A stretch of DNA of 53,998 bases from an uncultured Gammaproteobacteria bacterium. GTDB taxonomy: Bacteria > Pseudomonadota > Gammaproteobacteria > Pseudomonadales > Azotimanducaceae. This document shows positions 9,519 through 53,998 of this stretch, in pieces (the first letter of the stretch is position 1; each line of letters opens with the position of its first letter). The stretch spans positions 1-53,998 of the forward strand of contig CAJXAC010000006.1 of NCBI GenBank assembly GCA_913050035.1, written 5' to 3'. The position numbers and the translations under genes were made by a program. Under the pieces are notes generated by a model. It was not told the DNA's origin and made no database searches. It saw nothing but the letters and a program-made list of their open reading frames with translations.

Positions 9519-11099
9519 ATGCTTTCACTGTCGCCGTTTCAATTGACCGATCTTACTGGCGCGCTTCGGGAATTCTCTGGCAATCGCCAAAGTATGGTCT
9601 GCTTTGTTAAAGAGGATTGCCCAACCTGTCGAGAGGTGATGCCAGTGCTTGCAGCCATGCACAATGGCCTGGCGCAACACCTAGATTTTCTAGTAGTTGG
9701 GCAAACTGCTGCGGGCAATAAAAAGCTCCAGCAGGACTTCGATCTGCCGTTTTCGTTACTCGATGACAGTGCGTTAAAAGTATCCTTTGCAACAGACGTT
9801 GAGACGGTGCCGACTCTATTGGTCACAGATGCTTCGGGCAGTGTCGTCGCCGAGCAGGTGGGGTTTGTAAGAGACGACTGGCAAAGCTTAGTTGCCGCGC
9901 TACTCGAACAGGGGCCAGGCGGCGACCTTGGGTTAGATTGGTCGGCATTGCCCGAATGGCGGCCCGGTTGCGGTTCTCTGTCGGTAGACCCAACTCATGC
10001 GGATCGCCTGCAGGCAGAAGCAGATAACAGTCCTATCCGTGCACGTCGCATAGAGGTGGGCAGTTTGGATGATGAATTTGAATTTATGTTCGATCAGGGC
10101 TTTTCCGATGGCTTGCCGGTAATTCCACCGACCCCAGAGCGGGTGGTGCGCATGCTCACAGGCACCAGTCGTGACCCGCAAGAAGTTATTGCCGTTATGC
10201 CACCGAATATGGGCGAAGTTACGGTGGAAAAAGTTGCCATTAATTGCGTTTTGGCGGGTTGTAAGCCCGAATATCTGCCAGTGGTCATCGCGGCTGTCGA
10301 AGCCGTCTGTACTGATGATTTTAATATCCACGGGGTAATGGCAACGACCATGGGTGCGAGTCCGGTGATGGTCGTCAATGGCCCGATCCGGCACCGTATA
10401 GGCATGAATATGGGTATAGGGGCGCTTGGTCAGGGAAACCGAGCGAACGCAACAATAGGCCGCGCGCTGCGCTTAACGGTGCGCAACATTGGCGGCGCGA
10501 TACCTGGGGGTACAGAGCGCTCGACCCTATCTAATCCGATGAAATTCACCATGTGCTTTGCTGAATGGGAAGAACGCTCCTCTTGGGAACCCTTGCACGT
10601 AGAGCGCGGCTATCAACCGGACGAGTCCGTAGTCACCATCTTTGCAATGACCAGCGGGCCGGTATTGACGGTTGATGAAGGCTCCCTCGACGGACCGGCG
10701 TTAGCGGGTACACTCGGCCAGGCCAGCCAAACCATCCTCAATGCCCGTGCATATAGTTTTACCAATACATTGTTGGTGGTATCGCCAGAACATGTGGATA
10801 CATTCAACAGAGGCGGTGATTTCTCTAAAGCCGATGTGCGTCGGCGCATGCAAGAAGTCAGCGCGAAAACCTATCGCCAACTCATCGCAGATGATGCGTC
10901 CGGTGTCGGTTTAAAACCTGCCCAAGCTGCGCAAATGAGTGATGAACAACTTGATCGGGTGGTCGAAAAGTTCAAAGACGATGCTGACATTCATATCGTC
11001 GTTGCCGGTAGTGAGGCTGGAAAATTTACTGGCAGTTTCCACGGCTGGTTAACAGGCAGTCGTGGATCCATACCCGTATCACAAAAAATTGGCACGTAA
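9519..11099 (+). CDS. Thioredoxin-like domain fused to UGSC-partner domain
   Basis: 526 residues. Residues 1-130 look like a thioredoxin fold: the redox motif C34-P-T-C37 lies in FVKEDCPTCREV, and a cis-Pro loop (TVPTLLV) follows near P98. Residues 185-526 form a second domain that recurs alone in the protein at 47919-48995. Shared blocks are DGLPV..PTP.RV, TVEKVA, AGC.P (C248 here), the PVV.AAV.AV run, VNGP.R, GALG.G.RANA.IGRALRL, NIGGA.PG and PDESVVT. I do not know the function of this second domain. The next gene, 43 bases on, is a UGSC selenoprotein. The fusion suggests that thiol/disulfide exchange feeds or resets the partner or the selenoprotein. Confidence 0.8.
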   Translation: MLSLSPFQLTDLTGALREFSGNRQSMVCFVKEDCPTCREVMPVLAAMHNGLAQHLDFLVVGQTAAGNKKLQQDFDLPFSLLDDSALKVSFATDVETVPTLLVTDASGSVVAEQVGFVRDDWQSLVAALLEQGPGGDLGLDWSALPEWRPGCGSLSVDPTHADRLQAEADNSPIRARRIEVGSLDDEFEFMFDQGFSDGLPVIPPTPERVVRMLTGTSRDPQEVIAVMPPNMGEVTVEKVAINCVLAGCKPEYLPVVIAAVEAVCTDDFNIHGVMATTMGASPVMVVNGPIRHRIGMNMGIGALGQGNRANATIGRALRLTVRNIGGAIPGGTERSTLSNPMKFTMCFAEWEERSSWEPLHVERGYQPDESVVTIFAMTSGPVLTVDEGSLDGPALAGTLGQASQTILNARAYSFTNTLLVVSPEHVDTFNRGGDFSKADVRRRMQEVSAKTYRQLIADDASGVGLKPAQAAQMSDEQLDRVVEKFKDDADIHIVVAGSEAGKFTGSFHGWLTGSRGSIPVSQKIGT

Positions 11100-11142: not shown

Positions 11143-11664
11143 ATGGCATTAACGATTCTCGATCCGACCAATGAGGCGGTGCCTCTCGAGCGGAAGATCA
11201 CGCCGCGGCCTGAAGTGATCAAAGGCAAAGTGGCGTTTTTGGATATATCCAAGCCGCGTGGCAGTGTACTTCTTGATCGCCTGCAAGAGGCCTTTGAGCA
11301 ACGGCTACCACAGGTGGAAATAACGCGTTATACCAAGCCGACCTTTTCCAAGCCGGCACCCGACGCTCTGCGTGCCGAGATTAATGCAGCCAATGACTTT
11401 GTTGTTGAGGCCCTAGCTGACTGAGGCTCCTGTACCACGTGCAGTTTGCATGACACGGTATGGTTTGAGATTCAGGGCACTCCGGCAGTGTCGATAGCGT
11501 CATCTGAATTTATTGATGCAGCGCAAACCCAAGCTGAGGCATTAGGCATGCAGGATGCTAAACGGGTATTCGTTGCGCATCCGATTCAAGATGCCGACGA
11601 TCAGCAAATGACTTCTAAGGCAGATGCCATAGTTGACGAAGTGATCGCCGCGTTGCGGGCATAG
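11143..11664 (+). CDS. UGSC-type selenoprotein (in-frame UGA = Sec94)
   Basis: The frame opens at ATG 11143 after AGGAGG and meets TGA at 11422. It continues without interruption to TAG at 11662-11664, giving 173 residues if the UGA encodes selenocysteine. Around it the peptide reads LAD-U-GSCTTCSLHD, the UGSC motif of a selenoprotein family known from marine metagenome surveys. The U-x-x-C spacing is redox-like, and another Cys follows at +6. After the UGA comes WFEIQGTPAVSIASSEF, which aligns with GIPAVALVTEDF of the second UGSC protein at 47390. A hairpin just after the UGA fits a bacterial SECIS. A broken or frameshifted gene is less likely because frame and similarity continue on both sides. 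Function unknown. Confidence 0.85.
11430..11463 (+). promoter_or_regulatory. Candidate bacterial SECIS hairpin
   Basis: A lower stem (11430-11436 with 11457-11463, seven pairs including G-U) and an upper stem (GTGCA 11439-11443 with TGCAT 11447-11451) close a GTT loop. The loop G is 20 bases after the UGA, within the usual spacing for SelB recognition, and the loop opens with G as expected. Within the mRNA it would direct selenocysteine insertion at 11422. Confidence 0.6.
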
Positions 11665-11712: not shown

Positions 11713-12984
11713 TTGCAGAGACCGATTTACTACGGCTACTACATAGTCGGCGCGGCGTTCGTCGCGCAATTTGTTGCGATTGGCATATACAGTTACGTGC
11801 TCGGGGCATTTATGGAGCCCATGTTGACCGAGCTAGGATGGACTAGAGCGGACTTTACCCTGACCCGTACCATCGGTCAGGGGGTAATGGCGGCGGTCGG
11901 TTTCTACGTAGGTACCAAAGTAGATCGCCTTGGTGGTCGGCCCATCATGCTCACTGGTGCCACTATTTTGGTTGCTGGATTGTGCATGCACACCTGGATT
12001 CAATCGCTGTGGATGTGGTGGTTGTTAAACGGAGTTGTGGTTACCGTCGGCTGCGCCATGATTGGTAACTTGGTGGTTAACGTAACCCTCTCGAAGTGGT
12101 TTGTAGTTAATCGCGGCATTGTTGTGGCGATCGCTGCAATGGGTGTGTCATTTGGCGGTATTGTCCTCACGCCATTGGCGACCTATTTGGTAGATACTAT
12201 CGGCTGGCGACAGGCTTGGGTTGTATTGGGTATTGGCTCGGCGGTGCTGTTGTATCCGGTGGCATTGATAATGCGTCGGGCGCCAGAAGATTTTGGTCTG
12301 TACCCGGACGGTTTGAACTCGCAACAAGTGGCTGCTGGCGAGGGCGACCGGGCGCAAACGGAGTTTGCTAATTCCTATACTCGGGCCGAGGCGCTACGAA
12401 CGTTCTCCTTTTATGCCCTAGTAGTGGCCTTTGGTTGTTTCTCCGTCAATATCATTGTTGTACTGCTGTTGGCGTTACCGTACCTGACAGATAACGGCCT
12501 CAGTCGCGAGATCGCAGCGTGGGCTATAGCGGTCGCCTCGGTTCCAGCAATGTTGTCGAAACCTGTATGGGGCTATCTTATTGATCGCAGCCCAGTTAAA
12601 CCCTTGGCGGCGATATCGGCATCGATATGCGGTGTTGCGCTGTTTTGCATTATCTTTGCAGTAGCCGCGCAGGAGATTTTTTGGATCTATGCAGCATTCT
12701 TTCTGCTCGGTACCGGTTGGGGTGGCATGATTCCAATGCAGGAAGTCATTTGGGCATCGTTCTTTGGTCGTCGCTATCTGGGTAGCATTCGTGGCGCCGC
12801 AATGCCTTACGCTTTAGCCCTTGGCGCCGCAGCGCCCTGGTTGGTGTCTTATTATCGCGATGTGACCGGCGAATATGCGGGCGCGCTATTGCTTGTGGCG
12901 GGATTGAATGTGGCTTCCGGGGTCATGATCTTTTTCGTGCCGCCACCAAAACAGAAAGGATCAGCGCAATCTTCTGCAGCTTGA
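11713..12984 (+). CDS. MFS transporter (monocarboxylate/oxalate-type)
   Basis: 423 residues with twelve predicted membrane helices. The loop after helix 2 reads GTKVDRLGGRPIM, the major facilitator signature, with a related loop (WGYLIDRSPVKPL) in the second half. The opening YYGYYIVGAAFVAQFVAIG and the GWTRADFTLT segment resemble carriers for monocarboxylates and dicarboxylates. Start is TTG 11713, five bases after GGGAG. It follows the UGSC selenoprotein by 48 bases and is probably in its operon, so the module may act on an imported organic acid. Substrate unknown. Confidence 0.88.
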   Translation: MQRPIYYGYYIVGAAFVAQFVAIGIYSYVLGAFMEPMLTELGWTRADFTLTRTIGQGVMAAVGFYVGTKVDRLGGRPIMLTGATILVAGLCMHTWIQSLWMWWLLNGVVVTVGCAMIGNLVVNVTLSKWFVVNRGIVVAIAAMGVSFGGIVLTPLATYLVDTIGWRQAWVVLGIGSAVLLYPVALIMRRAPEDFGLYPDGLNSQQVAAGEGDRAQTEFANSYTRAEALRTFSFYALVVAFGCFSVNIIVVLLLALPYLTDNGLSREIAAWAIAVASVPAMLSKPVWGYLIDRSPVKPLAAISASICGVALFCIIFAVAAQEIFWIYAAFFLLGTGWGGMIPMQEVIWASFFGRRYLGSIRGAAMPYALALGAAAPWLVSYYRDVTGEYAGALLLVAGLNVASGVMIFFVPPPKQKGSAQSSAA

Positions 12985-47389: not shown

Positions 47390-47926
47390 ATGATTGAATT
47401 CCATGACCCAACAGGCGCTTCGGCGCAAACCGTTGAATCTTACGACCTTGTTTTTGATATGGCTGCGAATGCTGAAGATAAGCCCACGATCGGCTTACTT
47501 GCCAACGGCTTTGCCGACTCCGAGCGTTTTCTCAGCTTAATTGGCGACGCAATAACGGCGCGCTATCCCTCGGTAAATCTAAAACTATGGAATAAGGGCA
47601 ATGCCTCAATTCCCGCGCCTGAGGGTATGTTGCAAGAGATACGCGAGAGCTGTCATGCGGTGGTGGCGGCTTACGGCCACTGAGGCAGTTGCACTTCCGG
47701 CACCGTGCGTGACGGCGTTAACTTGGCTCGCTTAGGTATACCCGCAGTAGCACTGGTGACAGAAGACTTTTGGCCCCAGGGCGATTTCGTTGCGAAGTCG
47801 CTGGGTATGCCGGATATTCCGCGGGTGCAATTGCCGCACCCACTGGCAGGCACTGGCGTGGAAAACTTACGCTCGGTGGCCGAGCAAATCGTCCCGATAC
47901 TGATTCAAGGCTGGTTGCGTGACTGA
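47390..47926 (+). CDS. UGSC-type selenoprotein (in-frame UGA = Sec98)
   Basis: From ATG 47390 (GGAG seven bases upstream) the frame meets TGA at 47681 and continues to TGA at 47924-47926, giving 178 residues with one selenocysteine. The peptide reads AAYGH-U-GSCTSGTVRDG, then LGIPAVALVTEDFWPQG. The U-x-x-C motif and the G-x-PAV block match the protein at 11143, though the halves before the UGA differ strongly. The N-terminal half (KPTIGLLANGFADSERFLSLI) looks Rossmann-like. The next gene, coding for a partner-domain protein, overlaps it by 8 bases, so the two are co-expressed. An ordinary stop codon here would leave two orphan halves. Confidence 0.85.
47688..47713 (+). promoter_or_regulatory. 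Candidate bacterial SECIS hairpin
   Basis: GCAC (47691-47694) pairs with GTGC (47705-47708) and GTT (47688-47690) with GAC (47711-47713) across a two-base bulge. The ten-base loop contains GG about 16 bases after the UGA. The fit is weaker than in the first module because the loop G is not at the start of the loop. Confidence 0.4.
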
Positions 47927-48995
47927 TCTGTTACAAGCAGAAGATGAGACTCAGGCACTTGAGTTACTGCACAGTAAGGGTCTGACAGATGGGCTGCCGG
48001 TAGTGATTCCTACGCCGGATAGAGTTGCGCGGCTGGTCTTGGCGACGGGGCTTGACGCGGATTTGCTGCTAGGCGAAATGGGTCCGGGCAATGGTGCAGC
48101 GACGGTGGAGAAAGTCGCTGTAGCAGCCTGTATGGCTGGTTGTTTGCCTGATCATATGCCGGTAGTACTGGCGGCGGTGCAAGCGGTACTGCAGCCAGAA
48201 TTTGATCTCACCGAAATGCAATCGACTACTCACTGTACCGCACCCCTAATCATCGTTAATGGACCCGCAAGATTTAACTGTGGTCCTGTAGCCTCGGGTT
48301 TTGGCGCGCTGGGTCCTGGTCATCGGGCCAATGCGAGCATCGGCCGAGCACTGCGCCTATGTATGTTGAATATCGGTGGCGCGCGTCCTGGCGAATCTGA
48401 TATGGCGCTGTTGGGTCATCCGGGAAAATTCACGTACTGCCTTGCAGAGGACGAAGAAAACTCCCCGCTTTTGCCGATGCATCAAGACCTAGGATTTCGA
48501 CCGGAAGACAGTGTTGTAACGGTGATAGGAGCAGAAGCGCCGCACTCGGTGATATACAGCGGCGATGCTGACGATCCGGAGGATGCCGACAAACTTTTGC
48601 AGGTGTTGGCGATTGGGGTGGCCAATATGGGCACCAATAATGCTGTGCTCACCGGTGGCGGGGCTGCGGTGGTTTTGAATCCCGAACATGCAGAAATTTT
48701 TGCGCGGGCTAATATGACCCGCCGTGATATTCAGCAGGGCCTCTGGCAAGCTACGCACTATCCAAAAGATCGGCTCGCATACTTTGCCGAGGGGTTTGCT
48801 GCTCGGTTTCGTGATCAAGAGTACCGGTGCTTTGAGAGGCCTGAGGACATCCTAGTTCTAATGGCCGGTGGTAGCGGACTTTATTCTATGGTCATGCCAA
48901 GTTGGTGTGCTGGTGCGAATCGAAATCGCTTCGTCAGCCAAATAATAGAAACAGATCAGTTTTGCGAAGTTCCGGAGCTTAGCGCAGGCGCTTAA
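47919..48995 (+). CDS. UGSC-partner domain protein (no thioredoxin domain)
   Basis: 358 residues that match residues 185-526 of the fusion protein at 9519 along almost their whole length. Shared blocks are DGLPVVIPTPDRVARL, ATVEKVA, the AGC motif (C75), the PVVLAAVQAV run, IVNGPARF, GALGPGHRANASIGRALRL and PEDSVVTV. The N-terminal thioredoxin-like part of the other copy is absent. GTG 47919 overlaps the selenoprotein stop by eight bases. I know no biochemical function for this family. The gene ends 18 bases before fumarase, which may be coincidental. Confidence 0.82.
   Translation: MTDLLQAEDETQALELLHSKGLTDGLPVVIPTPDRVARLVLATGLDADLLLGEMGPGNGAATVEKVAVAACMAGCLPDHMPVVLAAVQAVLQPEFDLTEMQSTTHCTAPLIIVNGPARFNCGPVASGFGALGPGHRANASIGRALRLCMLNIGGARPGESDMALLGHPGKFTYCLAEDEENSPLLPMHQDLGFRPEDSVVTVIGAEAPHSVIYSGDADDPEDADKLLQVLAIGVANMGTNNAVLTGGGAAVVLNPEHAEIFARANMTRRDIQQGLWQATHYPKDRLAYFAEGFAARFRDQEYRCFERPEDILVLMAGGSGLYSMVMPSWCAGANRNRFVSQIIETDQFCEVPELSAGA

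Positions 48996-53618: not shown

Positions 53619-53998
<380 letters not shown>

Follow-up and report, generated by a model that had tools for sequence, protein, structure and literature searches.

The window analyzed here, a contig stretch of 53,998 nucleotides from an uncultured gammaproteobacterium, contains two pairs of adjacent genes, each encoding a selenoprotein of the UGSC family and a partner protein. In copy 2, the UGSC gene (47390-47926, + strand) encodes 178 residues with selenocysteine (Sec) at position 98 of a GHUGSC motif; its Sec codon is an in-frame TGA (47681-47683, + strand) at the UxxC position. The partner gene follows (47919-48995, + strand; 358 residues), with a GTG start at 47919 and an overlap of 8 bases (47919-47926). 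Copy 1 has the reverse arrangement, a 526-residue partner (9519-11099, + strand) preceding the UGSC gene (11143-11664, + strand; Sec codon TGA at 11422-11424). Translation with TGA read as Sec confirms the two modules, their opposite gene order and the 8-base overlap reported in the preliminary description. The copy 1 partner begins with a thioredoxin-like stretch, at about residues 15-118, that includes a CPTC motif (9618-9629, + strand). The cysteine of the partner's AGC motif is Cys248 in copy 1 and Cys75 in copy 2 (codon 48141-48143, + strand), and the copy 2 partner has a second conserved cysteine, Cys174, in an FxxC.AE motif (codon 48438-48440, + strand). An MFS transporter gene directly 3' of copy 1 (11713-12984, + strand) is a possible uptake partner. 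About 4.6 kb after copy 2, the end of a trxB-like thioredoxin reductase gene (53619-53960, - strand) is cut by the contig end.

The module had been described as duplicated. Both pairs are real, but they are ancient paralogues: the partners share 36% identity and the UGSC proteins 33% over 126 residues. The copy 2 partner is 67% identical to a protein from a Halieaceae MAG and 64% identical to one from an Acidimicrobiia MAG, and the copy 1 partner is 48% identical to a Rokubacteria MAG protein. Because the window partners are closer to proteins of other lineages than to each other, they represent old subfamilies rather than a recent duplication. A third pair, in partner-UGSC order, lies on another contig of the same genome (C1:45170-46736). 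This genome is 91.67% complete and has three UGSC and three partner places, every one paired.

UGSC is a known, uncharacterized selenoprotein family (PF24696/NF041046). The window proteins score 147.3 and 155.4 bits against PF24696 (cut-off 25) and share its UGSC motif with an in-frame TGA; against NF041046, copy 1 lies above the equivalog cut-off of 125 bits (157.3) and copy 2 below it (102.8). The TGA at the first position of the motif is accompanied by Sec machinery in the genome, where contig C14 carries genes for tRNA-Sec (70.6 bits against a gathering score of 47) and SelB (385 bits against a cut-off of 242). SECIS-like folding of bases 4-45 from the codon gives a mean z of -0.61 at 104 Sec loci and -0.47 at 14 Cys loci, so that the Sec loci do not stand clearly above the Cys controls. 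An Rfam scan of the window yielded no match.

The 2008 GOS survey catalogues UGSC as a selenoprotein, the fifth commonest selenoprotein family in its Table 2, and mentions a UGSC/"Unknown_1" fusion (PMC2398784). There, UGSC is joined to a conserved domain with a conserved cysteine, as in the fusions described below, and Unknown_1 is possibly the partner family of the window. In the portions available of the literature on UGSC, mostly outside subscription journals, we found no function, partner survey or GrdB link, the 2008 fusion being the nearest report (PMC2398784, PMC13188914, PMC9312934, PMC3091704); nor did these portions describe a constant partner, variants of gene order or GrdB/PrdB kinship for PF24696. 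UGSC is absent from the operon section of PMC13188914. As far as these sources extend, the description of the locus as an undescribed selenium-dependent system holds for the function, the partner survey and the GrdB link, but the selenoprotein was catalogued and a fusion of it mentioned in 2008 (PMC2398784).

The two families occur together across genomes. Among 58 related genomes, 37 of them from the window's genus (its own genome included), UGSC was found in 37 and the partner in the same 37, which are 36 of the 37 members of the genus and one other. A partner lies on the same strand within 652 bases of 75 of the 77 UGSC matches (45 partner-first, 30 UGSC-first). One of the two unpaired UGSC genes belongs to G028 and stops 303 bases short of a contig end; the same genome has an unpaired partner piece whose first base is base 29 of another contig. 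The second, in G014, is a partial match. Seven of 82 partner matches are without a pair, three beginning in the first 30 bases of a contig and one running to a contig end. Both families turned up in the same five of 398 genomes drawn from the phylum; in the four other than the window genome, the five UGSC places are separated from a partner by 56-79 bases.

From a scan of the genome collection led by the partner, the best 80 of 581 confirmed matches were retained, a choice that favors close relatives of the query; these loci and 10 plasmid loci form a 90-locus set. Here, 92 of 99 partner matches have a UGSC gene within 1.5 kb, always on the same strand (66 UGSC-first, 26 partner-first). The other seven comprise two with UGSC farther away and five with none in the fetched stretch. 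In one of these five, the Sporomusa locus L164, inspection by eye shows the partner joined to a diverged UGSC domain, and the genomes of the remaining four (L108, L119, L138 and L152) contain UGSC elsewhere. In G455, the sole UGSC and the sole partner are on different contigs. Families apart as often as together, the pattern named beforehand as counting against joint function, is not what this neighborhood survey found. The motif of the 91 UGSC matches in the set reads Sec in 68 and Cys in 20, with 3 not determined. Haloarchaea carry the system too, as do actinobacterial and proteobacterial cultures.

Several individual loci deserve mention. The lone partner of L108 (L108:6007-6984, G452:C38) carries an in-frame TGA of its own. 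The pair at L113 has a partner with 67% identity to that of copy 2; its contig bears the title of a Klebsiella pneumoniae MAG, probably a mislabelled or mixed bin. In Paracoccus ferrooxidans (L168:6384-6953), a UGSC gene with one in-frame TGA (NUGSC) is annotated as two small "hypothetical" genes, with selB nearby. Partner genes are also plasmid-borne: one in Acidovorax T1 (L166) sits on a conjugative IncP plasmid, close to IS1071 and IS91-like transposases, and another on a plasmid of Variovorax SRS16 (L162), from linuron-contaminated soil, which suggests that they are mobile catabolic cargo.

Fusion and co-divergence connect the two proteins more directly. We read six natural single-chain fusions (L117, L121, L129, L133 and two in L148), and plasmid annotations give a further three as single genes (L163, L164 and L167). 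AlphaFold2 predicts a confident two-domain arrangement for one L148 fusion (pLDDT 92.8, pTM 0.91). A Foldseek search with this model returned no match at E up to 0.001 and no thioredoxin among the 50 matches listed. UGSC and partner distances correlate with r = 0.928 over 146 pairs (at most 0.073 in 500 permutations), a value inflated by shared species history; partners were therefore swapped between paralogues within 19 genomes (38 pairs). The observed r of 0.969 was reached by none of 2000 swaps (mean 0.10, largest 0.652). This co-divergence shows stable pairing, which joint duplication alone would give as well. Residue couplings from 193 pairs (effective number 135) were too noisy to use, with 71 of the top 200 between the proteins vs a 46% share of all pairs; one high pair joins UGSC Trp128 to partner Met72, which adjoins the AGC motif.

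Parsimony places three gene-order switches on the partner tree, of which at least one is forced by starred branches. The change of order, from which cooperation had originally been argued, is therefore real but rare, and the fusions and co-divergence are better evidence. The claim itself, that the two proteins work together, is strongly supported by the pairing, the natural fusions and the paralogue-specific co-divergence, and we regard the pairing of UGSC with its partner as close to certain.

The partner resembles no family in the databases searched. Copy 2 matches nothing in Pfam or NCBIfam, and the matches of copy 1 are solely thioredoxin-like and confined to the N-terminus, the best in Pfam being AhpC-TSA (E = 2.7e-4; 21.3 bits, below the cut-off of 26). 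Seventeen family members gave no match of note in Pfam (best E = 0.025), and among PDB sequences the partner has no relative (best E = 0.096, a designed protein). AlphaFold2 models the partner part of copy 1 well and the thioredoxin part poorly (pTM 0.66). The fold matches of this model (best E = 4.4e-4) were rejected as the identity of the core, since those listed are thioredoxin-like and thus belong to the N-terminus; for the core itself, structure search gave no convincing match.

Conservation within the partner family was read from an alignment of 93 rows, derived from 93 non-redundant sequences of 139 by replacing L003 with window copy 2, omitting L108 for its in-frame TGA and adding copy 1; a 92-row UGSC alignment was built likewise from 91 of 135. 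The conserved partner motifs are DGLP, GxGxRANATIGRA and FxxC.AE, and positions invariant in all 93 rows include Arg143 and Glu177. The AGC cysteine, originally described as invariant, is conserved in 90 of 93 partners but not fully invariant, and Cys174 is conserved equally (90 of 93). The three exceptions (L061, L121:2967 and L136:8215) have alanine, and the adjoining UGSC of each reads Sec. Conversely, fusions from Vibrio europaeus and Sporomusa keep the AGC cysteine even though MGTS stands at the UGSC motif, which thus lacks both Sec and Cys. Alanine beside a Sec-type UGSC and cysteine retained beside MGTS indicate that the AGC cysteine is not simply the counterpart of the selenol. The proposal that it meets the selenol is weakened by these cases and by the equal conservation of Cys174, and we consider it doubtful. 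The MGTS fusions (L163:7356-9041 from V. europaeus and L164:7314-9038 from Sporomusa termitida) retain the partner cysteines, and both lie near aconitase X and DUF126 genes. The Cys-type partners of L132 and L135 end in a short C-terminal tail with two cysteines (DCSDGAC and CVGGAC), which could be a mobile redox tail.

What appears to be new for UGSC itself is a match of its Sec domain to that of GrdB/PrdB in profile comparison, with Sec aligned on Sec. A search of 16 genomes gave PF07355 (GRDB) matches in 12, and at 20 of 20 GRDB places read beyond the match end an in-frame TGA follows. In L190 and L202, the Pfam match ends at the residue before Sec, leaving the Sec domain outside the profile, which may hide the UGSC kinship. 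The window genome has three short GRDB/PrdB-like matches (C59, C66 and C67), of which two, read through (L193 and L207), contain an in-frame TGA in PVUPxC. With hhalign, the 92-row UGSC alignment matches a 20-row alignment of the GRDB Sec domain at E = 6.8e-6 (probability 84.6). The reversed profile gives E = 0.32, ten column shuffles give 0.079-0.76, and the match persists at 2.3e-4 with the motif masked. Seventeen control comparisons, made with the partner and 16 neighbor-gene clusters (including clusters 871 and 27, by eye antisense-like open frames rather than genes), gave nothing better than 7.8e-3.

Because the match spans only 48-58 columns, the claim is one of distant kinship of the Sec domain and not of GRDB membership. 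The two systems appear to share a UxxC Sec domain, and they differ in other respects. Searched against Pfam at E up to 1, the window UGSC proteins match PF24696 only and no GRDB profile; against the PDB, UGSC found nothing. The partner profile was compared with one protein, encoded beside GrdB in G453 and presumably GrdE-like, and shows no similarity to it (E = 0.46), from which it follows that pyruvoyl chemistry is not carried over.

The neighborhood of the pairs is catabolic and transport-rich. Neighbors annotated or named by eye include CoA-transferase III, acyl-CoA dehydrogenase, short-chain dehydrogenases and TTT/TRAP binding proteins. Thioredoxin reductase genes were sought by tblastn, as ORF calling had missed trxB in L159 and L161. 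At six loci (L159, L161, L162, L123, L135 and L142), from Roseovarius, Arthrobacter, Variovorax, Rhodococcus, Cupriavidus and Candidimonas, trxB is no more than about 2 kb from the pair, and all six of these same-neighborhood loci are of the Cys type (CGSC), among them L159 from Roseovarius sp. THAF8. Three of them, those of Arthrobacter, Rhodococcus and Cupriavidus, also have a thioredoxin gene or a match to one: trxA in L161 and trxA-like matches in L123 and L135. For Sec-type pairs, the only trxB genes observed nearby are in L073 and L075, relatives of copy 2, where they are encoded on the opposite strand. The thioredoxin part of the copy 1 partner found no tblastn match in the 90 loci.

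The family is greatly expanded in G457, the genome of L115 (JACPQD01), a 5.0 Mb Chloroflexi MAG. Its UGSC matches number at least 137 and its partner matches at least 150, lower bounds in which every candidate scored was a match (137 of 137 scored from 208 first-look UGSC candidates, 150 of 150 from 232 for the partner). When 57 UGSC places were checked against 123 listed partner places, 54 had a partner within 1 kb on the same strand and three did not. In a sample of 21 stretches chosen to hold pairs (e.g., L223 and L231-L250), each of the 50 UGSCs has a partner within 1 kb; 46 have Sec at the motif and 39 are fused in frame to the partner. An SBP_bac_5-like protein, recognized by similarity to two neighboring family-5 solute-binding proteins, lies within 2.5 kb of 38 of the 50. 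Their 1225 pairwise identities have a median of 0.29 and a maximum of 0.81, all below 0.9, which shows that the sampled UGSCs are not strain duplicates. G457 has SelB (353 bits), and its best tRNA-Sec match scores 43.1 bits, below the gathering score of 47.

Published schemes for GrdB and PrdB combine a separate substrate-binding or processed subunit with a dithiol or selenol reductant, and we liken UGSC and its partner to them (PMC13188914, PMC3091704). In the proposal for D-proline reductase, the PrdB selenolate attacks the bound substrate and a PrdB cysteine then cleaves the selenoether to give a selenide-sulfide, and glycine reduction is fed by thioredoxin reductase and thioredoxin (PMC3091704, PMC13188914). 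On balance, we favor a reading in which UGSC and the partner are two subunits, sometimes one chain, of a thioredoxin-fed reductive enzyme of the GrdB/PrdB kind, the partner binding the substrate; its chemistry and substrate are inferred. The partner, through its DGLP, GxGxRANATIGRA and FxxC.AE motifs, would bind an imported small organic substrate, and the UGSC selenolate would attack it. The cysteine three residues after Sec would resolve the intermediate and leave a selenenyl sulfide, as proposed for PrdB, and thioredoxin, whose likeness is fused to the copy 1 partner, would reduce this bond. The enzyme probably breaks down imported small molecules, and paralogous pairs probably serve different substrates. 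Members with MGTS in place of UGSC would be incapable of the proposed selenol or thiol chemistry.

Two other accounts would keep the pair together and change its chemistry. One takes it as a thiol/selenol redox or peroxide-detoxifying couple in which the partner is a scaffold or electron carrier, not a substrate-binding enzyme. The UxxC motif, the thioredoxin-like fusion in copy 1 and the trxB neighbors fit such a couple, as does the Trx-like fold guessed for UGSC in the 2008 survey (PMC2398784). However, the Sec domain matches that of GrdB/PrdB, the Foldseek list for the fusion model holds no thioredoxin (although no match in it is strong), and the expansion with solute-binding proteins, together with the CoA-pathway neighbors, points to catabolism; we consider the redox couple unlikely. 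We also think it improbable that the partner catalyzes a non-redox core reaction, as a lyase, isomerase or hydrolase, for which Sec or Cys is only a nucleophile or metal ligand in some members. The MGTS fusions, which keep both partner cysteines beside aconitase X and DUF126 genes, speak for this, but the prevalence of Sec and Cys at the motif and the nearby thioredoxin-system genes speak against it.

Two further explanations deny the pair a joint function or the window gene its integrity. That the genes travel together by operon descent alone accords with an order conserved within large clades, with the lone partners and with the separation of the families in G455. It is very hard to reconcile with the fusions, with adjacency across phyla in both orders, with identical genome-level presence in two samples and with the co-expansion of both families in G457, and we give it very little weight. 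A reading of TGA as a genuine stop codon, which would leave the window gene broken, could appeal to the indistinct SECIS-like folding, but it is scarcely credible given the Sec or Cys read at this position in nearly all UGSC matches and the presence of tRNA-Sec and SelB.

With the thioredoxin-fed reductive enzyme as the preferred reading, the fixed partner, the plausible mechanism class and the candidate reductant make UGSC testable, and Cys-type pairs in cultured organisms allow its study without selenium. A broader proposal, which we put forward with slightly less than even confidence, is that UGSC and its unnamed partner family constitute a new and widespread class of Sec/Cys-dependent reductive catabolic enzymes, kin to GrdB/PrdB in the Sec domain, that radiated in one groundwater Chloroflexi lineage to well over 100 selenoenzymes of differing substrate, many with an uptake binding protein nearby. 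The largest bacterial selenoproteome given in a 2026 review has 63 members, in one MAG (PMC13188914). If the proposal is true, the G457 set would be about twice this record. A genome with at least 137 copies would alter ideas about the possible size of a selenoproteome, and it suggests that selenium chemistry takes part in breaking down organic matter of many kinds.
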